A DNA stretch of 64,000 nucleotides from NCBI RefSeq assembly GCF_001610835.1, contig NZ_CP011270.1:2870001-2934000 (forward strand). The letters are read 5' to 3'. Positions 5,605-59,037 of this stretch are shown piece after piece. Position numbers and translations under genes: made by a program. Numbering within the stretch: the stretch's first letter is position 1; each line of letters begins with the position of its first letter. This DNA comes from Planctomyces sp. SH-PL14. GTDB taxonomy: Bacteria > Planctomycetota > Planctomycetia > Planctomycetales > Planctomycetaceae. The notes beneath the pieces were generated by a model that saw only the letters and a program-made list of their open reading frames with translations, was not told the DNA's origin and ran no database searches.

Positions 5605-5610
5605 CCTCAT

Positions 5611-5927
5611 CCGGGTCCAGGGGCACCCTGGTGGGGAGTGCAGAGGGGCAACGCCCCTTTGCCCGCCGGAGGCCTGGCCGTCGAGAGATGTCTGAAGGAG
5701 ATCGTGTCCAGACGCGGACGACGTGCCGGATGCCCCCTCACCAACCCGCGGGGAGTTCAAAGCGAGCGATGAGTTCTCAGCGCCGGTACCACAAAGGGGA
5801 CATCCGTTTCGTCCCATAGTTCCTCATAGAAGAGGCCTCCGGCGGCAAGGGGGCGAGGCCCCCTTGACCCCAGCGGCCATGGCACAATGGGTTTGAGCTA
5901 TGGATGTCGCGCCGGCAAGAACGCGGA
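5611..5927 (+). repeat. Family A multi-hairpin repeat, copy 1 (full length)
   Basis: Reference copy. In this orientation the element starts at CCGGGTCCAGGGGCACCCTGG (an end hairpin). It continues with hairpin AGGGGCAACGCCCCT and the arm TTGCCCGCCGGAGGC, a central hairpin of the form TGTCC-loop-GGACA, a CACAAAGGGGACATCCG segment, and the opposite arm GCCTCCGGCGGCAA. It ends with hairpin AAGGGGGCGAGGCCCCCTT and a CCGGCAAGAACGCGG tail. It fills the gap between two convergent genes exactly, ending at the stop codon of the gene at 5928. Confidence 0.9.
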
Positions 5928-8900
5928 TCAGTCGATGTAGACGAACTCGTTCAGACTAAAGATCGCCTGCGCCAGATCCGTCCGCGCCACCACCTCTCCA
6001 TCACTCCGCCCCGCGTCCGCATACCGCCGGCTCTGCGACTCAAAGAACCCCACCGCCGCCCGCCGCTCCGCCTCATTCGGCTCCCGACCAAACGCCAGCC
6101 GGTATCCCGCAGTTACCGTCGCCTCCGGACTCTCCCGCTGCATCTGCCTCGCAAACGCCTCCGAATACTCCCGCCCCTGCGGACTGTTGAGGAACATCAG
6201 CGCCTGCGGAGCAATCGTCGTCGTCGGCCGCTGCCCAATGCTGACCAGGTGCTCCGGCCAGTCGAAGAGCATCATCACGGGGATCAGCCCGCTCCGCTTG
6301 ATCTGGAAATACACGCTCCGCCGCCGCATCCCCTGATCGAGCGTCCCCGCCGCATACATCGTCGGATCCAAGAGCCCCGAGACCGCCAGCATCGCATCCC
6401 GGATCGGCTCCGCCTCCAGCCGCTGCGGCGCCCGCCGCCAGTGCAGAACGTTCTCCCGGTCCACGCTCGCCCGCGCCTCGTCGAACGCGCCGTCCTGCAT
6501 GTAAACCTGACTCGTCATCATCAGCTTGTGCAGCCGCTTCAGCGTCCAGCCGTTCCGGACCAGATCGCCCGCCAGCCACTCCAGCAGCTCGGGATGCGAC
6601 GGCTTCTCCCCCTGGATCCCAAAGTCGTTCGGTGTCGCCACCAGCCCCCGGCCAAAGTGATGCTGCCACAACCGGTTGACCACAACCCGCGCGGCCAGGT
6701 TCCCCGCTCCGCGGTCCGGATCCGTGATCCAGTGCGCGAGCGACGCCCGGCGGAACGACGTCTGCTTCCAACCTTCCGGCGGTGAGACGGCCCACGCCGC
6801 CGGCTCCGCCCCCTGCGGCATCAAGACCTGCAGGAAGCCCAGCGAAGCCGCGTCCCCCTTCTGATTCACATCCCCACGCTTGAGGACGTAGGTCTCCGGA
6901 TAGAAGTGCGGGAACCCGCGGCCGTCGGCATGGTGCGGCAGGTGCGGCCGCCCCTCAGTCGTCACGAGAACCTTCGTGAGCTGAACTCCGGAACCCTTGT
7001 CGGTGAGCTCCTTGACAGCGGCGGTCCGCTTCGCCCACTCGGGGCTCTTCGCCCGGAACCACGCCAGCCCGGTCGGCCACGCGCCACTGGCCGGGTCCGG
7101 ATTCGCTTTCAATGCAACGAGGGCCTCCCGGATCGCCGGATCGAGCGTCGTCCCGCCGACCACCAGATCCGGGCTCGCCTGCGAGGACACCGACAAACGG
7201 AACCGTCCGAGCGAGTGCTTCGGATTGGGATGCGTCATCTTGAGGACGACGGTCAGCCGCGCTCCTTCGGCAAGGGCGACCGGCGTCTCGAACTCGAACA
7301 CGGCCGCCTGATCCCTCCCGATCCCGCCAGCATCGACCGCCCACCCTGTTCCGTCCGCGGGATCGAGCGATGCCGCGACCGACAGGTCTCCCATGTTCTG
7401 CTGATGCGTCGCCCGGGCGCTCTTGAGCCGGACCGGCACCGGTTCCCCGGTCCCCGAGAGCGGAGCGGCGGTGACCGTGATTTCGCTCAGGACAAAGTTC
7501 CCGTTCCCGGCCCTGCCCGGCCCCTTCTGCGGAAGCGAGTCGTGCGTCAGGGCCTCCAGACGGAGAGCCGTCACGTTCGGCAGCCGCGTCTCCCCGGTGA
7601 TGGTGACCGTCTCGGTCGCGGGGGCGTTCCCGGAAGCGAGGAACGCCCCATCCCCCTGGAGGGCGTAGGCGCTCTTCTTCGCGGCCGAGACCTGCGGAGC
7701 GGCCAGCAGGTCCCACGGACCGAGCGCCTGCTGCGGATCAAACGTCGTCAGCCACTGCCGGAACTCGTCCGGCAGCTTCGCCGCCTCGTAGTCCCGGACC
7801 TCCTTCTCGAGCTCCTCCCTGCGGAGCGTGAACTGCCGCAGCCGCTCCGCGTTGGCGGCCGGTTCGAGGTCCATGTCGACCTCGCTCCGGATCGCGGTCG
7901 TGAAGGCCGAAGCCAGCCGGTAGTAGTCGCGGGCGGGGATCGGATCAAACTTGTGGTCGTGGCACCGGGCACAGCCGATTGACAGCCCCAGGAACGCAAC
8001 GCCGGTCGTGGCCACGATGTCGTCCAGCTCGTCGTAGCGGGCGGACTCAAACTCCGCCTCGGTCAGCTGCGTCGGGAATGCCCCCGCCCCGATGAATCCC
8101 GTCGCCATCATCGCCAGCTGGTCGTTCGGCGCCAGTTCGTCTCCCGCCAGCTGCCACTTCACGAACTGCGGGTACGGCATGTCCTGATTGAAGGCTTTGA
8201 TCAAGAAGTTGCGGTAGTGGTAAGCCGTGTTGCGGTCGTAGTCCTGCTCATACCCGTGCGACTCCGCATAGCGGGCCACGTCCATCCAGTGCCGCGCCCA
8301 GCGTTCGCCGTAGTGCTCTGATTCCAGCAGCCGGTCGACGAGTTTTTCATACGCCGCCGGATCGGGATCGTTCACGAACCGGTCGACCTGATCCGGCGTC
8401 GGCGGAAGCCCGAGGAGGTCGAAGTACGCCCGGCGGATCAGGACGCGGCGCGAAGCGGCTGCGTTTCCGTGAAGCCCCTTCGCCTCCTGCGCCGCGGCAA
8501 TAAACCGGTCGATCGGCGTCCGGCACCAGGTCTCATTCCGCACCGCGGGGATTGCCGGTGCCGCGAGCGGACGGAACGACCAGAACTGGCGGTCCGCATC
8601 GGTGACGACCATCTCCTTCGGTGCCGCGACCGGCCCGTCGGTCAGCGGCTTGTCATAAGGCGCCCCGAGCTCGATCCACTTCTTGAGGGCCTTCAGCTGC
8701 TCCTCCGGCAGCTTGTCTTTCTGCAGGGGCATGAAGGGCTCAGCCGTCCGGGCGACAACCGCGTAGAGATGGCTGTCCTCAGCGGTCTCGCCCAGCATCC
8801 CGCTCTCTTCGAGTTTCTCCCGTGTCGAGAGATCGAAGTCCGCTTTGACCGACTTCCCGCCGTGGCAGTCGAGGCATTCCTTGACCAGGATCGCCCGGAC

Positions 8901-9056: not shown

Positions 9057-9190
9057 GGCGTTCGTTCGGAGGCGGGAAGAACGGCAGGAGAATCCATCGG
9101 CGGGAACCGATTCATCCTATCGGCGTCCAGGGCGCGGCGATAGCGGAGCGTCGCCGGTTTCCGGCGGTGTGAGGGCGGAGAGCGACGTGT

Positions 9191-9290
9191 GGGAGGGCGA
9201 GGCTCCGGCCGAGCCGCGGCGATGCAAAGGAACTCTCGAACTGCACATCGCTGAGAACCTTCGCGGCTCAGCAGGAGCTTCGCCCTCCCG
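9191..9290. repeat. Family B palindromic element (complete)
   Basis: About 100 bp with inverted arms of about 29 nt. The left arm begins GGGAGGGCGAGGCTCC and ends GAGCCGCGG; the right arm runs CGCGGCTCAGCAGGAGCTTC to CCTCCC. The spacer has an inner GCGATGCA / TGCACATCGC pair, so the whole could fold into one long hairpin. Another complete copy is at 54696-54869 and a single arm at 28049-28079. The element lies between the start of the cytochrome gene and the end of mgtE. Confidence 0.85.
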
Positions 9291-10872: not shown

Positions 10873-11201
10873 TTGCCGCGCCCAATGCGTCTTCTCGCCG
10901 GCGCGGCTGTGCCACCTCAAACCCAACTTGCTACGGCAGCCTGGGGTCAAGGGGTTTCGACCCCTTGCCGCCGGAGGCGCTTCCATGAGGAACCGTGGTA
11001 AGCAACGGACGACCACTTTGTGGAACCGACGTTGAGGACTCCCCGCTCGCTCTGGAATCTCCGCGGGTTGGTGAGGGGGTATCCGGCACAGTGTTCGCGT
11101 TTGGACACGATCTCCTTCAGACATCTCTCGACGAGAAGGCCTCCGGCGGGCAAAGGGGCGTTGCCCCTCTGCACTCCCCACCAGGGTGCCCCTGGACCCG
11201 G
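10873..11201 (-). repeat. Family A repeat, copy 2 (full length)
   Basis: Inverted relative to copy 1. The arm hairpin here is AAGGGGTTTCGACCCCTT (10940-10957) instead of the usual GGGGGC/GCCCCC form: both sides of the stem changed together to GGGGT/ACCCC. The central hairpin reads TGTTCGCG. It lies between divergent genes, so the promoters of mgtE and of the gene at 11265 must flank or overlap it. Confidence 0.88.
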
Positions 11202-11264
11202 TATTGGCTGACTGCCACTTTGCACACTGGTAACTTCCGATGCGATCGGCCACGATCGCCCACC

Positions 11265-19318: not shown

Positions 19319-19346
19319 GTGGCGATTCAAGCGAGGCGCACTCCAA

Positions 19347-19662
19347 CCGGGTCCAGGGGGACCCTGGTGGGGGATGCAAGGGGGCAACGCCCTCTTGCCC
19401 GCCGGAGGCCTGGCCGTCGAGAGATGTCTGAAGGAGAGCGTGTCCAGGCGCGGACAGCGTGCCGGATGCCCCCACATCAACCCGCGGGGATTCCAGAGCG
19501 GGCGGTGAGTCTTCAACGCCGGTACCACAAAGGGGACATCCGCTGTGTCCCACGGTTCCTCATTGAAGTGCCTCCGGCGGCAAGGGGGCGAGGCCCCCTT
19601 GACCCCAGGCTGCCGTCGCACATTGGTCTTGAGGTGGCACAGCCGCGCCGGCCAGGACGCGG
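19347..19662 (+). repeat. Family A repeat, copy 3 (full length)
   Basis: Same orientation as copy 1. The end hairpin is CCAGGG-GGA-CCCTGG and the first inner hairpin is the AAGGGGGCAACGCCCTCTT variant. It lies between two genes in the same direction, 28 bp after the kinase stop and 212 bp before the next start. Confidence 0.88.
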
Positions 19663-19874
19663 TTCGAGCTTCAGGCCGTTCTCGCTGACATTCTTCGCAG
19701 ATCGCGACGCAATCGCTTAACGCGGCCGCGACAAACTGACCCCCGCAGAGCGGAGTGATTGTCTGAACGGTGGCGTACCGCCCCGCGGGCCCGGTCTTTC
19801 CCCTCGTGAAAGAGATCCGGCGGGACTCGCGGCAGAGCAGGACGCTCTCGTCTTCATCAGGAAGAGTCCGAGCG

Positions 19875-26959: not shown

Positions 26960-26990
26960 GGGGGATGCGCGACTCAAAGTGCCCAGTCAT

Positions 26991-27313
26991 CGGGTCCAGG
27001 GGCACCCTGGTGGGGAGTGCAGAGGGGCAACGCCCCTTTGCCCGCCGGAGGCCCTCTCGTCGAGAGATGTCTGAAGGAGCACGTGTCCAAGCGCGGACAG
27101 CGTGTCGTATGCCCCCACACCAACCCGCGGGGAATCCAAAGCGGGCGTTGAGTCCTCAACGCCGGCTCCACAAAGCGGACATCCGTTGTGTCCCACGGTT
27201 CCTCAGGGAAGTGCCTCCGGCGGCAAGGGGGCCTGTGTTGTTTTTTGGCCCCTTGACCCCAGGCTGCCGTGGCACGTTGGGTTTGAGCTATCGAGTCGTC
27301 CCGGCAAGGACAC
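26991..27313 (+). repeat. Family A repeat, copy 4 (full length, swapped loop)
   Basis: Orientation as copy 1. Its right-hand hairpin (27225-27254) has the usual stem, but the short GCGAGGC loop is replaced by a longer cassette: GGGGGCC-TGTGTTGTTTTTT-GGCCCC. It lies between the convergent lhr gene and the small lipoprotein gene at 27364. Confidence 0.88.
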
Positions 27314-27363
27314 TGTTTGAGCCAGCGGGATGAACCATTCCGCTCGCCCCGCTTACCGTCCGT

Positions 27364-27886: not shown

Positions 27887-28048
27887 GTTGCTCTCCGGGG
27901 CAAGTCGTGGGGATCGGGTGATATCAGCTCGGCCGGAGAGGGGGGAACGGGATTTGGTCGTTTAGCGCGCTTTCTAATCACCGCGAGCCCGTCCGTCGGC
28001 AGCTTTTGCCACAAGAAGAGGAAAGCCGCCTGGCGCGACCCGTCCCCT

Positions 28049-28079
28049 GGGAGGGCGAGGCTCCAGCCGAGCCGCGGCG
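28049..28079. repeat. Family B single arm (remnant)
   Basis: GGGAGGGCGAGGCTCC followed by AGCCGAGCCGCGG, the left arm of the elements at 9191 and 54696. No matching right arm follows within 300 bp, so this is a solo or decayed copy. Confidence 0.75.
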
Positions 28080-28157
28080 ATGGCTCCCGCGGCCGATCAA
28101 TCCTCGACGCCGCGCAGCGAGCGACCGCGTCATTCCCCTCGCCGTCTTCTCTGCGTC

Positions 28158-28214
28158 CTCCGTTTCTCTGTGTTTCAAAACTCTTCCGGAAGAGGGAAAC
28201 ACAGAGGCATAGAG
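28158..28214. repeat. Family F palindromic repeat
   Basis: A nested inverted repeat: outer arms CTCTGTGTTTC (28166-28176) and GAAACACAGAG (28196-28206) enclose the perfect palindrome CTCTTCCGGAAGAG (28181-28194). Flanking bases CTCCG and CACGGAG extend the symmetry. It lies upstream of the ECF sigma operon. Confidence 0.75.
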
Positions 28215-28385
28215 ATCACGGAGAAAGAAGGAGATACCGCGCTCCGACCAACGGGCCAGCGGCAACGACCCCGCCTCGCCACGGACCCGCAAACCTGACA
28301 ATCGAAGGATTTTGGGGACGCACTTCGCGAACGCCCTCACAGAAAACCTCGCCCAACCACTGTTCGCACCCCTGGCCGGCGAAGA

Positions 28386-28532
28386 GGTGAGGGGGCATCC
28401 GGCACGTTGTCCGCGCTTGGACACGCCCTCCTTCAGACATCTCTCGACGGCCAAGCCTCCGGCGGGCAAAGGGGGGCCAAGAAAACAACACAGGCCCCTC
28501 TGCACTCCCCACCAGGGTCCCCCTGGACCCGG
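28386..28532 (-). repeat. Family A repeat, copy 5 (half element)
   Basis: Inverted orientation; only the end carrying the GGGTCC hairpin is present, from the central hairpin (TGTCCGCGCTTGGACA) outward. Its inner hairpin at 28471-28499 has the long loop cassette GGCCAAGAAAACAACACAGG. The other half is absent. It lies 101 bp before the ECF sigma gene. Confidence 0.85.
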
Positions 28533-28633
28533 TGGATGGGGGTCGTCCATTTGCCGCGAACACTTTCTTACGACCACCACATTCTCCCAAACGACCCTTG
28601 CCCCAACCGTCCACCACCCGCTGAAATACCTGC

Positions 28634-30748: not shown

Positions 30749-30757
30749 AGTCAATTA

Positions 30758-30914
30758 CCGGGTCCAGGGGGCACCCTGGTGGGGGATGCAAGGGGGCAAC
30801 GCCCTCTTGCCCGCCGGAGGCCTGGCCGTCGGACGCTGTCTGAAGGAGTGAGTGTCCAAACGCGGACAACGTGCCGTATGCCCCCTCACCAACCCGCGGG
30901 GAGTGCAAAGCCAG
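30758..30914 (+). repeat. Family A repeat, copy 6 (left half)
   Basis: Orientation as copy 1. The end hairpin is CCAGGG-GGCA-CCCTGG. The sequence follows family A through the central hairpin and the CACCAACCCGCGGGGAG segment. It then breaks off at 30914, where a different inverted repeat (family K) begins. It starts 9 bp after the dusB stop. Confidence 0.85.
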
Positions 30915-31016
30915 CGGTGCGGTGTGACGGAGTCCTCAGCGTGGATGCGGTTTGAGCGAGCATAGCTAAGGCGCAAGACCCACTCTCGACTCACGAATCC
31001 GAAGGACACCGCACCG
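30915..31016. repeat. Family K inverted repeat replacing the right half of copy 6
   Basis: Perfect 11-nt inverted ends: CGGTGCGGTGT (30915-30925) and ACACCGCACCG (31006-31016), 80 nt apart. The interior starts with a family A-like TCCTCAGCG and otherwise is unrelated. The right end lies 8 bp from the murJ stop. Confidence 0.7.
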
Positions 31017-33250: not shown

Positions 33251-33368
33251 GCGAGACCACTGCGAAGGGAAACAAGAACGTGCCGATGGATGGTAGCCGG
33301 AGAGCCGCAAGTCCTCGTCTGTCCGGGGCATTGAGGAGGTGAAATGCCTTATGCCGTTGGCTCGCACG

Positions 33369-33683
33369 ATGTTCTTGCCGACACGACTGTGCTCGCTCAA
33401 ACCCAACGTGCTACGGCAGCCTGGGGTCAAGGGGGCCATGCCCCCTTGCCGCCGGAGGCGCTTCCATGAGGAACCGTGGGACACAACGGATGTCCCCTTT
33501 GTGGTACCGGCGTTGAGGACTCACCGCTCGCTTTGCAATCCCCGCGGGTTGGTGAGGAGGCATACGGCACGTTGTCCGCGCTTGGACACTGCGCGCTTCA
33601 GACAACTTTCGATGGCCAGGCCTCCGGCGGGCAAAGGGGCGTTGCCCCTCTGCACTCCCCACCAGGGTGCCCCTGGACCCGGT
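33369..33683 (-). repeat. Family A repeat, copy 7 (full length)
   Basis: Inverted. The arm hairpin is AAGGGGGCCATGCCCCCTT. It lies between divergent genes, 118 bp from the small membrane protein start and 112 bp from the acetyltransferase start. Confidence 0.88.
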
Positions 33684-33795
33684 TGGGGAGCAATGCCTGA
33701 CCAACATTGAGCAAACGCACCTTCTCCCTTCAGCCTTCCGCACCCTTTCGGGACGGCGGTACGATGCCAAGTACATCGCACCAGGAACACCCTCT

Positions 33796-36584: not shown

Positions 36585-36901
36585 CCGCGTTCTTGCCGGA
36601 CGGACGCCTTAGCTCAAACCCAATGTGCCACGGCGGGCTGGGGTCAAGGGGGCCATGCCCCCTTGCCGCCGGAGGCACTTCTGTGAGGAACCGTGGTACG
36701 TAACGGATGTCCGTTTTGTGGAACCGGCGTTGAGGATTCCACGCCCGCTTAGTAATCCTCGCGGGATAGGTGAGGGGGTATCCGGCACGGTGTCCGCGAT
36801 TGGACACGCGCTCCTTCAGACATCTTTCGACGGCCAGGCCTCCGGCGGGCAAGGGGGATTCTCCCCCTTGCATCCCCTGACCAGGGTGCCCCTGGACCCG
36901 G
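36585..36901 (-). repeat. Family A repeat, copy 8 (full length)
   Basis: Inverted. The outer hairpin near its 3' side has an unusual loop: AAGGGGGATTCTCCCCCTT (36851-36869), a perfect 8-bp stem that differs from the GCAACGC form of other copies. It lies between the convergent thioredoxin-protease and adaptor genes. Confidence 0.88.
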
Positions 36902-36927
36902 TTGATGAGCCACGTTGGGCTTGCCCC

Positions 36928-43134: not shown

Positions 43135-43206
43135 GTGGATTCTCCTTGGCGGGTGCCGTTCTATCAGACCGGGGGAGGGGAATGTAGTGGGAACCGCCGT
43201 TCGAAG

Positions 43207-43520
43207 CGTGTCTTGCCGGCACGGCTATGCCACCTCAAACCCAACGTGCGACGGCAGCCTGGGGTCAAGGGGGCCACGCCCCCTTGCCGCCGGAGGCACT
43301 CCTGTGAGGAACCGTGGTACGCAACGGACGTCCCCTTTGTGGTACCGGCGGTGAGAACTCCCCGCTCGCTTTGGACGCCCCGTGGGTTGGTGTGGGGGCA
43401 TACGACACCTTGTTCGCGTTCGGACACCCCCCCTTTCAGGCATCTCTCGACGGCCAGGCCTCCGGCGGGCAAGAGGGCGTTGCCCCCTTGCATCCCCCAC
43501 CAGGGTGCCCCTGGACCCGG
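43207..43520 (-). repeat. Family A repeat, copy 9 (full length)
   Basis: Inverted. The arm hairpin is AAGGGGGCCACGCCCCCTT. The central hairpin has decayed on one side (TGTTCGCGTTCGGACA). It lies between divergent sixA and obg. Confidence 0.88.
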
Positions 43521-52334: not shown

Positions 52335-52541
52335 GGGATGCCTTTGTGGAACCGGCGGTGAGGACTCCCTTACATCTGACCGCCGGCTTTGCGGTCCCTG
52401 CGGGGTGGCGAGGGGGCATACGGCACGGTGTCCGCGCTTGGACACGCGCTCCTTCAGACAGTTCTCGACGGCCAGGCCTCCGGCGGGCAAGAGGGCGTTG
52501 CCCCCTTGCATCCCCCACCAGGGGTTACCCCCTGGACCCCG
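52335..52541 (-). repeat. Family A repeat, copy 10 (truncated)
   Basis: Inverted. The CCGGCAAG-tail half is missing; the copy begins at the TTTGTGGAACCGGCGGTGAG segment and has a 14-nt insert-like stretch near 52370. The end hairpin is the 7-bp version CCAGGGG-TTAC-CCCCTGG. It lies between the convergent activator and yqgE genes. Confidence 0.85.
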
Positions 52542-53258: not shown

Positions 53259-53577
53259 GGGGTCCAGGGGGCCACCCCTGGTGGGGGATGCAAGGGGGCA
53301 ACGCCCCTTTGCCCGCCGGAGGCCTGGCCGTCGAGAGATGTCTGAAGGAGAGCGTGTCCAAACGCGGACGACGTGCCGTATGCCCCCTCACCAACCCGCT
53401 ATGGCTTCAAAGCGAGTCGTGGAATCCTCAACGCCGGTCCCACAAAGGGGACGTCCGTTGCCTACCACGGTTCCTCACAGGAGTGCCTCCGGCGGCAAGG
53501 GGGCGTGGCCCCCTTGACCCCAGCCTGCCGTGGCACGTTGGGTTTGAGCTGTGCACGTCGTGCCGGCAAGGACGCGG
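53259..53577 (+). repeat. Family A repeat, copy 11 (full length)
   Basis: Orientation as copy 1. The end hairpin is CCAGGGG-GCCA-CCCCTGG, and the arm hairpin is AAGGGGGCGTGGCCCCCTT. It lies between divergent yqgE and the CDF gene, about 100 bp before the latter. Confidence 0.88.
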
Positions 53578-53679
53578 GTTGAGCATTCCACCAATGAAAG
53601 CACTGGCCGGCGCGGGAGTCGACTCGCTACGCTCAAATGTGTCGTCAATGTCCCACCCGAACTGTCGCGACGCCTGCCA

Positions 53680-54681: not shown

Positions 54682-54695
54682 ACGGACAACGCCAC

Positions 54696-54869
54696 GGGAG
54701 GGCGAGGCTCCTGCCGAGCCGCGGCGGTGGCAAAAGCGGTCAAGTACCCCCTTTGCACCGCCTCGAACTTGTCTCGGATAGCCGACTCTCGAAAGCTCAC
54801 GGGGGAGTCCCTCGCAGTTATTGGGCGCGTCTGGACCCTTCGCGGCTCAGCAGGAGCTTCGCCCTCCCG
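54696..54869. repeat. Family B palindromic element (complete, long spacer)
   Basis: Arms as at 9191: GGGAGGGCGAGGCTCC at 54696 onward and the reverse complement ending CGCCCTCCC at 54869. Spacer about 116 nt. Outside the arms, AACGCCAC and GTGGCGTT extend the symmetry, possibly parts of the same element. It begins 14 bp after the CDF stop. Confidence 0.85.
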
Positions 54870-55863: not shown

Positions 55864-55946
55864 CGGATCCGGCGGCGCGAGAGAGAGCCGTGACGTGGCT
55901 GCATCTTCGGGCTCGCGGCGCTGGAGTCAATTGAGCAGACGAACAA

Positions 55947-56258
55947 CGTCCTTGCCGGCACGGCGATGCTACGTCAAACCCAATGTGCTACGGCAGCTGG
56001 GGTCAAGGGGGCGACCCCTTGCCGCCGGAGGCATTCCGGTGAGGAACCGTGGTAAGCAACGGATGTCCCCTTTGTGGTACCAGCGTTGAGGACTCACCGC
56101 TCGCCCTGGAATCCCCGGCGGGTTGGAGAGGGGGCATCCGGCACGGTGTCCGCGCTTGGACACGCGATCCTTCAGACATCTCTCGACGGCCAAGCCTCCG
56201 GCGGGCAAAGGGGCGTTGCCCCTCTGCACTCCCCACCAGGGGTTACCCCTGGACCCCG
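55947..56258 (-). repeat. Family A repeat, copy 12 (full length)
   Basis: Inverted. The arm hairpin is shortened to AAGGGGGCGACCCCTT, and the end hairpin is CCAGGGG-TTA-CCCCTGG. It lies between two same-strand genes, upstream of tadC and just after the ABC transporter stop. Confidence 0.88.
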
Positions 56259-58681: not shown

Positions 58682-59037
58682 CCGGGGTCCAGGGGGTAAC
58701 CCCTGGTGGGGAGTGCAGAGGGGCCTGTGTTGTTTTCTTGGCCCTTTGCCCGCCGGAGGCCTGGCCGTCGGGAGATACCTGAAGGAGAACGTGTCCAAGC
58801 GCGGACAACGTGCCGGATGCCCCCTCACCTAAAACGCGGGGATTGCAAAGCGAGCGATGTCGATTGAGAGAGTCCTCAACGCGGGTCCCGCAAAGGGGAC
58901 ATCCGTTGTGTCCCACGGTTCCTCATGGAAGTACCTCCGGCGGCAAGGGGGCCAAAAGACAACGCAGCCCCCCTTGACCCCAGGCTGCCGTCGCACAATG
59001 GGTTTGAGCAAGCACAGCCGTGCCGGCGAGGAGGCGG
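58682..59037 (+). repeat. Family A repeat, copy 13 (longest; loop cassettes in both arms)
   Basis: Orientation as copy 1, about 356 bp. The left hairpin (58719-58746) is AGGGGCC-TGTGTTGTTTTCTT-GGCCCTT. The right one (58945-58974) is AAGGGGGCC-AAAAGACAACGCA-GCCCCCCTT. The two loop cassettes are near reverse complements of each other. The end hairpin is CCAGGGG-GTAA-CCCCTGG. It lies between the divergent ABC and aroA genes. Confidence 0.9.

Follow-up and report, generated by a model that had tools for sequence, protein, structure and literature searches.

Probably exchangeable hairpin-tip alleles and linkage equilibrium among the REPIN-like repeats of Planctomyces sp. SH-PL14

Introduction

Whether the REP-type repeats of bacteria evolve by gene conversion has been a question since the 1980s. 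In 1988, Higgins et al. reportedly presented gene conversion as a force in the evolution of REP sequences, to go by the title of their paper. The genome of Planctomyces sp. SH-PL14 offers a countable system in which the question can be approached.

Several described systems bear on hairpins whose tips change while their stems stay the same. In REP families, alternative loops with GC-rich complementary ends are carried on a common stem, according to the available part of one study (PMC3733652). In rRNA hairpins, template switching inverts loops, and 69 clusters consistent with loop-only inversion are reported in the accessible portion of that work (PMC8794818). In the spacer between the chloroplast genes trnH and psbA, a region of 25-27 bp with inverted repeats of at least 18 bp on either side occurs in both orientations, as stated in the excerpted text of PMC2903610.

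Here, we analyse a stretch of 64,000 bases of contig NZ_CP011270.1 (66% G+C; hereafter the window), in which a first-pass annotation had pointed to a cassette at the tips of some hairpin arms of a repeat, family A, together with further copies of this repeat elsewhere in the genome.

Results

Family A is an intergenic repeat of ~320 nt, and 13 copies of it are present in the window. In the 2.8 Mb of sequence read (141 sources, including the window), 471 copies were collected; these stretches are enriched in the cassette. A sample of 33 stretches (660 kb) that were not picked by cassette contained 68 copies, 48 of them full length, and extrapolation from these 68 copies gives ~870 copies per genome of 8.44 Mb (a single contig of 8,442,773 bases). 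An independent, genome-wide count revealed 788 right arms with the exact flank pattern. A full copy opens with a sharp left end (ACCGGGTCC...) and the left hairpin arm; a body of ~160 nt comes next, and behind it lie the right hairpin arm and a right end that is ragged. The two arms, which have the same tag and stem-loop, form inverted repeats. Followed outwards from the body, an arm begins with CCTCCGGCGG and continues through a G-rich stem strand, the tip, and a C-rich stem strand, the sequence being G-CCTCCGGCGG-CAAGGGG...CCCCTTG-ACCCC; the C-rich strand is mostly followed by TGCACTCCCC, TGCATCCCC or TGCACCCCC in left arms and by TTGACCCC in right arms. The left end, ACCGGGTCC, resembles the reverse complement of the right end, AACCGCGTCC, a possible sign of terminal inverted repeats like those of classical MITEs, but the right end is ragged. 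No target-site duplication was obvious by eye in an informal look at the flank composition of 224 copies, 70 of which were inspected. At the gathering score, Rfam gave no matches in the 64-kb window.

Among the first 332 copies collected, both ends of 263 lay within the profile limits used, 53 copies were right-truncated, and 15 were left-truncated, at least three of the latter being cut by the ends of stretches. In the first 101 stretches, the sharp left and ragged right ends, together with the 53:15 ratio of right to left truncation, were reminiscent of copying from a fixed end. An overlap of more than 100 nt with a called gene was found for only one of 257 placed full copies (a home-made gene caller was used, and six copies at stretch edges were dropped). 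In the genome stretches, genes whose 3′ end faced a copy had their stop codon at a median of 22-23 nt from it, and genes whose 5′ end faced one had their start codon at a median of 130-140 nt. The larger distance gives the impression that copies avoid promoter regions or are cleared from them.

Most of the window's copies carry short tips in both arms. Such copies lie at 5610-5928 (+ strand), 10888-11203 (-), 19345-19667 (+; the query for the search of relatives described below), 33363-33684 (-), 36585-36902 (-), 43203-43520 (-), 53260-53582 (+), and 55940-56257 (-), while those at 30756-30945 (+) and 52341-52540 (-) are right-truncated and have a short left tip. The first-pass annotation had reported four cassettes in the hairpin arms of three further copies, and reading of the sequence found all four in place. 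The copy at 26988-27320 (+) has a short left tip and a T-type cassette (in the arm frame defined below) in its right arm (27214-27260, +), the tip of which reads CC-TGTGTTGTTTTTT-GG, with the cassette, TGTGTTGTTTTTT, at 27234-27246. The right-truncated copy at 28377-28534 (-) has a left arm only, with the A-type cassette AAGAAAACAACACA at 28479-28492. In the copy at 58684-59035 (+), both arms carry a cassette: the left arm (58708-58759, arm frame on the - strand) has it at 58726-58739, TGTGTTGTTTTCTT on the + strand, and the right arm (58934-58981, +) has a variant A-type cassette, AAAAGACAACGCA, at 58954-58966. When five of the window's arms (47-58 nt) were folded as DNA, the four cassette arms gave -7.3 to -11.1 kcal/mol and one short-tip arm gave -15.5 kcal/mol. 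Elsewhere in the genome, the basal stem in the right arms of copies 8119266 and 8323477 is perfectly complementary to the outer strand over 10 nt (GGGGTCAAGG/CCTTGACCCC); these two perfected basal stems look like quasi-palindrome correction, a known product of template switching.

A search of the 8.44-Mb genome with the cassette 14-mer revealed 46 exact places and 42 places with one mismatch, whereas the reversed control gave none, so that chance is far from accounting for them. Eighty-four of these 88 places are inside parsed arms; by reading, three more are in arms that the parser had missed, and one is in an unrelated repeat. Thus, the cassette is specific to family A, with 87 of 88 genomic matches at arm tips. 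The sole match outside the family (position 3988944) belongs to another repeat family (GGGAGGGCGAGGCTCC... GCTTCGCCCTCCCG), which encloses a CTCTGTGTTTC...GAAACACAGAG palindrome and is also present in the window at 9190-9290, 28048-28240, and 54695-54869. In the unselected stretches, the cassette was carried by six of 61 parsed left arms and four of 49 parsed right arms. We conclude that the cassette (CC-14 nt-GG) is an allele of the family A arm tip that a minority of arms, roughly a tenth, carry. A scan of genome contigs, in which the window's own record was possibly not included, gave no match to the cassette with GGCC ends.

To compare orientations, arms were read in their own frame, from CCTCCGGCGG outwards; a tip that reads like AAGAAAACAACACA was called A, and its reverse complement was called T. 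The two tips of the copy at 58.7 kb, whose opposite orientations had been taken as a sign of arm-to-arm copying or inversion, are opposite on the + strand only, and in the arm frame both are A-type. Because the arms are inverted repeats, opposite orientation within this copy is trivial and is no evidence of inversion. The single window arm of differing orientation is the right arm at 27214-27260. The first-pass annotation had proposed that all arms of the family be listed and classified; when this was done over the whole genome with exact patterns, both orientations were found, but their distribution was not random, with 107 A and 2 T tips in left arms and 19 A and 65 T tips in right arms (Fisher p ~2.5e-31). 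In the stretches read, 90 A, 2 T, and 346 short tips were counted in left arms (438 parsed of 441 eligible), and 80 T, 23 A, and 279 short tips in right arms (382 parsed of 389 eligible). A fixed orientation, which had been named as a mark of a chance variant confined to one line of descent, is therefore nearly the case in left arms and is not the case in right arms. Frequent flipping of left-arm tips is strongly disfavoured. In an invertible switch, both orientations would be common at all equivalent sites, which is not so in left arms; because of this 107 to 2 imbalance, we consider orientation to be an inherited allele and not the position of a flip switch.

The tips of the two arms differ also in their variants. 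Length and G-position variants of the R-T type (T tips of right arms) were present in 54 of 75 R-T tips and in seven of 90 L-A tips (A tips of left arms), a comparison that is biased because the first 67 cassette stretches had been picked for their likeness to the 14-mer; in a less selected listing, which covers 100 of the 107 L-A arms, 13 had R-T-type variants by eye, four of these being AAAGAAAC. The C-run after the tip has four C's in 51 of 75 R-T arms and five to six C's in 20 of 23 R-A arms. A left-arm variant, AAGAAGAC, was found in six of 90 L-A, three of 23 R-A, and none of 75 R-T tips (all variant counts use 75 R-T arms, five further arms of the total of 80 being outside them). The copies at 4920559 and 4925886 have AAGAAGAC in both arms of each; since they are neighbours, they were counted as one event. 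The two L-T arms have one tip variant in common on different inner stems, and the right arm of one of these copies is also T. We conclude that the L-A, R-T and R-A tips belong to pools that are in part separate, with only infrequent transfer from one to another. Copying from arm to arm, as the first-pass annotation had it, is plausible, given the R-A tips with left-arm variants and the one neighbouring pair of copies with an uncommon variant in both arms.

An exactly inverted tip between unchanged stems, as expected of loop inversion by template switching, was observed in three of 23 R-A arms, each of which corresponds to an existing R-T arm with its tip exactly inverted; the comparison is between copies, not at one orthologous locus. 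The R-A arm of copy 6568594 is an exact inversion with five partner copies and has kept the four-C run typical of R-T arms, and those of copies 1641453 and 1615780 are exact inversions with one partner copy each. When up to one mismatch was allowed, nine of the 23 R-A arms had an inversion partner; A-run slippage could imitate some of these partners. For the two L-T arms, the sample contained no L-A arm that was an exact inversion partner. Since three R-A tips are T arms exactly inverted, tip inversion has probably occurred, though not as frequent flipping. Inversion at the palindrome tip, as originally suggested, is thus retained as an infrequent event, but not on the strength of the copy with two cassettes. 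In the simplest history, a small number of founder tips would have been inverted now and then and sometimes copied from arm to arm, while their spread from copy to copy would have been extensive.

The association between tips and the sequences around them was then determined, the five further R-T arms being treated as short in the linkage figures. All nine pairings of three inner with three outer stem backgrounds carried left-arm cassettes, and a single pairing accounted for 38 of the 78. Association of the left cassette with its flanks (expectation, 1) had a mean chi-square of 8.3 at 13-20 nt and 1.3 at 21-30 nt; with tips removed, the mean was 11 at 0-7 nt. For R-T tips, the mean chi-square was 0.42 at 13-20 nt (three sites; expectation, 1). 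Residual distant association amounted, in a first analysis, to 5.1 for left and 3.7 for R-A cassettes at 31-50 nt and to 2.1 for R-T cassettes at 101-300 nt, and, in an analysis of 362 copies, to 2.8 for left and 2.3 for R-A cassettes at 26-50 nt and to 2.2 at 16-25 nt and 1.95 at 101-350 nt for R-T cassettes. Beyond ~20 nt, hardly any linkage remains between tip state and flanking variants. The idea that tips are copied between repeats, also put forward in the first-pass annotation, is borne out by the many flanking backgrounds and by the little linkage that is left beyond this distance.

Nearest neighbours by body sequence predicted the left tip weakly (agreement of 0.710 versus 0.641 in shuffles, sd 0.036) and did not predict the right tip (0.668 versus 0.663). 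The tip-state changes on the body tree, 52 for left and 47 for right arms, were within the shuffled range (49-58 and 45-50, respectively). Body sites themselves were hardly predicted by this tree (mean kappa 0.055, 40 sites); because body trees are uninformative, the low clustering of tip states on them is no independent evidence. Pairing of tips loop to loop within a copy was considered and is unsupported, the states of the two tips being independent (15/58/81/211, p = 0.24) in a table that is biased to single-cassette copies, since the presence of a cassette was the reason for selecting most of the stretches. The unselected stretches gave 39 copies with two short tips, four with short and T tips, and three with A and short tips, too few to be used alone.

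The weakness of the body tree led to a test for linkage equilibrium, conducted with 362 copies and 61 common two-allele sites, with tips removed. Mean n*r2 was 71 at 1 nt, 31 at 3-5 nt, 19 at 6-10 nt, and 4.4 at 11-20 nt; it decreased to 2.1-2.2 at 21-40 nt and 1.35 at 41-60 nt, and was 0.98-1.05 beyond. The permuted control gave 0.33-1.17, and 60 families simulated without recombination gave 81-299. All four allele combinations occurred at least five times each in 1284 of the 1358 pairs of sites more than 40 nt apart. The same decay was observed in 259 copies and in a 55-copy subset composed of the unselected stretches and the window. Thus, family A as sampled is in linkage equilibrium beyond ~60 nt. 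Common alleles whose linkage is strong at 1-10 nt and absent beyond 60 nt require that tracts of tens of nt be exchanged, whether between resident copies or at the birth of copies.

Among the variable sites, 48 of 77 are transitions, and third alleles are rare (median 4.7%). Median nearest-neighbour divergence of the body was 13%, and the closest pair differed by 4.7% over the element. Mean divergence was 16.5% for copies less than 2 kb apart (11 pairs), 17.1% at 5-100 kb, and 17.4% above 100 kb, so that proximity drives conversion to a small extent at best, although three of the ten copy pairs that are most alike lie within 10 kb.

One gene for a REP-associated tyrosine transposase (RAYT) is present in the genome, at 2097753-2098121 (NF047646 REP_Tyr_transpos, 183 bits, cut-off 80). 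A search of the surrounding 3.4 kb with a 15-nt tag-plus-stem pattern, at up to three mismatches, gave no match, and the family A element was not found there either. By reading, the GTAG/CGTC tag beside the stem is absent from family A arms, the tag of which is G-CCTCCGGCGG. Transposase and reverse transcriptase genes were considered as neighbours of the repeats, and two of seven loci had a copy in 3.3-3.6 kb, which was judged to be about the expectation from copy density. Family A can be described as REPIN-like, being an inverted palindromic doublet that is extragenic and has many copies in a genome with a RAYT gene.

A search of 58 relatives, none of the same genus and with up to 12 candidates scored per genome, gave no full family A match and one match of 35 nt. 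With the loop left free, the arm core CCTCCGGCGGCAAGGGG-loop-CCCCTTG was found in at least 119 stretches from distant bacterial phyla, and some genomes contain many of these arms; among the matches listed are Desulfoluna, Bilophila, Candidatus Aminicenantes, Sandarakinorhabdus, Asaia, and Oscillospiraceae, and 17 of 80 matches listed come from one D. limicola chromosome. In these distant arms, G precedes the core in 118 of 120 and ACCC follows it in 110 of 121, neither being part of the search pattern. Their loops differ by taxon, as with the AT-rich tips of 16-18 nt in Aminicenantes. Of five arm-carrying genomes, two had no match to a Y1 transposase. Judged from these sequences, the arm core may represent an undescribed superfamily of tagged palindromes. 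No cassette-like loop was present among the 121 distant arms listed, and on this evidence the cassette is therefore local to the present genome.

Discussion

The cassette is confined, one match aside, to family A arms, is found there on many backgrounds, and is nearly unlinked to its surroundings beyond ~20 nt; it has therefore passed from one dispersed repeat to another by copying of short tracts, tens of nt long. We consider it rather probable that short-tract ectopic gene conversion or template switching operates in this population of REPIN-like repeats, with the tips as exchangeable alleles; the putative conversion events are read from copies within one genome. Template switching would be the molecular route. 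A hairpin would stall replication, and the nascent 3′ end would depart within the GC-rich stem. It could then anneal to a stem elsewhere, in the opposite arm or in a different copy, the GC-rich stem ends providing micro-homology, copy the foreign tip, and return, the outcome being a short patch of gene conversion. Because the stem ends, GGCC...GGCC, are palindromic, a tip could be copied in either sense; an inverted tip would occasionally arise, and its orientation would then be inherited and would spread with the tip.

The same decay of linkage would be obtained if copies were mosaic at birth, through template switching between donors during transposition (by a REP-associated tyrosine transposase acting on single-stranded DNA, or by reverse transcription), and old copies were not converted afterwards. 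The genome does contain one such transposase gene and five reverse transcriptase matches, and the sharp left end, the ragged right end, and the excess of right over left truncation (53 versus 15 of 332 copies) are what one-ended copying would leave. Young copies are few, however, as the median nearest-neighbour divergence of 13% in the body and the 4.7% divergence of the closest pair over the element indicate, the transposase gene is without flanking arms, and an autonomous partner was not recognised, though not by a systematic search; we regard birth as the sole occasion of exchange as unlikely. Much less probable is plain descent, in which one cassette-bearing subfamily was multiplied by transposition and the orientation variants are its markers. 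Founder pools of this kind would explain why R-T tips have a common four-C run and variants of their own, why left cassettes are nearly fixed in orientation, and why these show weak agreement between nearest neighbours, but they would not be expected to leave cassettes on all nine inner and outer left-arm combinations, with little flank linkage and with state changes on the body tree within the shuffled range.

Copies could also look shuffled without any exchange if the same mutations recurred or if selection permitted only a few sequence states, and the many transitions (48 of 77 variable sites) and rare third alleles (median 4.7%) are such as constraint could give; yet an 18-nt cassette is implausible as a product of repeated point mutation, and strong linkage at 1-10 nt that decays with distance is not a product of independent mutation, which makes this account highly improbable. 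We attach the least probability, very little indeed, to a programmed or enzymatic inversion of tips, a flip switch similar to phase-variable promoters: both orientations do occur in right arms, where three of 23 R-A arms equal existing R-T arms with the tip exactly inverted, but left arms with comparable GGCC stems are A by 107 to 2, and the R-T and R-A pools differ in the flanking C-run and in their variants.

Exchange of short tracts between repeats, which we prefer to these accounts, can be taken further. The ~870 dispersed repeats might constitute a freely recombining ('sexual') population with tracts of tens of nt, little dependence on genomic distance, and tips swapped between copies and arms in either sense. 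Behind it could be a dedicated activity, for example that of the genome's only REP-associated transposase, if this enzyme nicks hairpins and thereby primes template switching; this extension is tentative, and we think it possible but doubtful. In this genome, the tip cassette marks exchange and the curve of linkage decay sets its scale at tens of nt. If strain data agree, the repeats would serve as a naturally occurring assay of template switching at hairpins and would show how hundreds of scattered repeats can stay alike without recent transposition.

The idea that repeat copies are rewritten by gene conversion is, to go by the title of their paper, the same as that of Higgins et al. in 1988, to which family A adds a population-genetic signal at tens of nt and a marked tip cassette. 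A direct precedent was not found in a literature search, partly judged by title, and linkage equilibrium among REP copies was not found in the available parts of PMC3733652, PMC3116915, PMC8049555, and PMC12306157. The rRNA hairpins, as described in the accessible portion of PMC8794818, are alike in that loops are inverted between intact stems and one mechanism can turn or replace a tip; the rRNA events are rare and typically involve loops of four nucleotides, up to 7-8 nt, whereas in family A a 14-nt loop has moved between copies. The trnH-psbA inversion, from what is given in the excerpts of PMC2903610, concerns one orthologous locus in many plants, while family A involves hundreds of paralogous loci of one genome, with the left arm nearly fixed. 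Compared with REPINs, insofar as they are covered in the obtainable text of PMC3116915 and PMC3733652, family A is different in its ~320-nt length with a ~160-nt body, in its tag, G-CCTCCGGCGG, and in a transposase gene without flanking arms; it is like the REPIN/REP and RAYT systems of these papers in its hundreds of intergenic copies, its two inverted palindromic units, and the presence of a RAYT gene in the genome.
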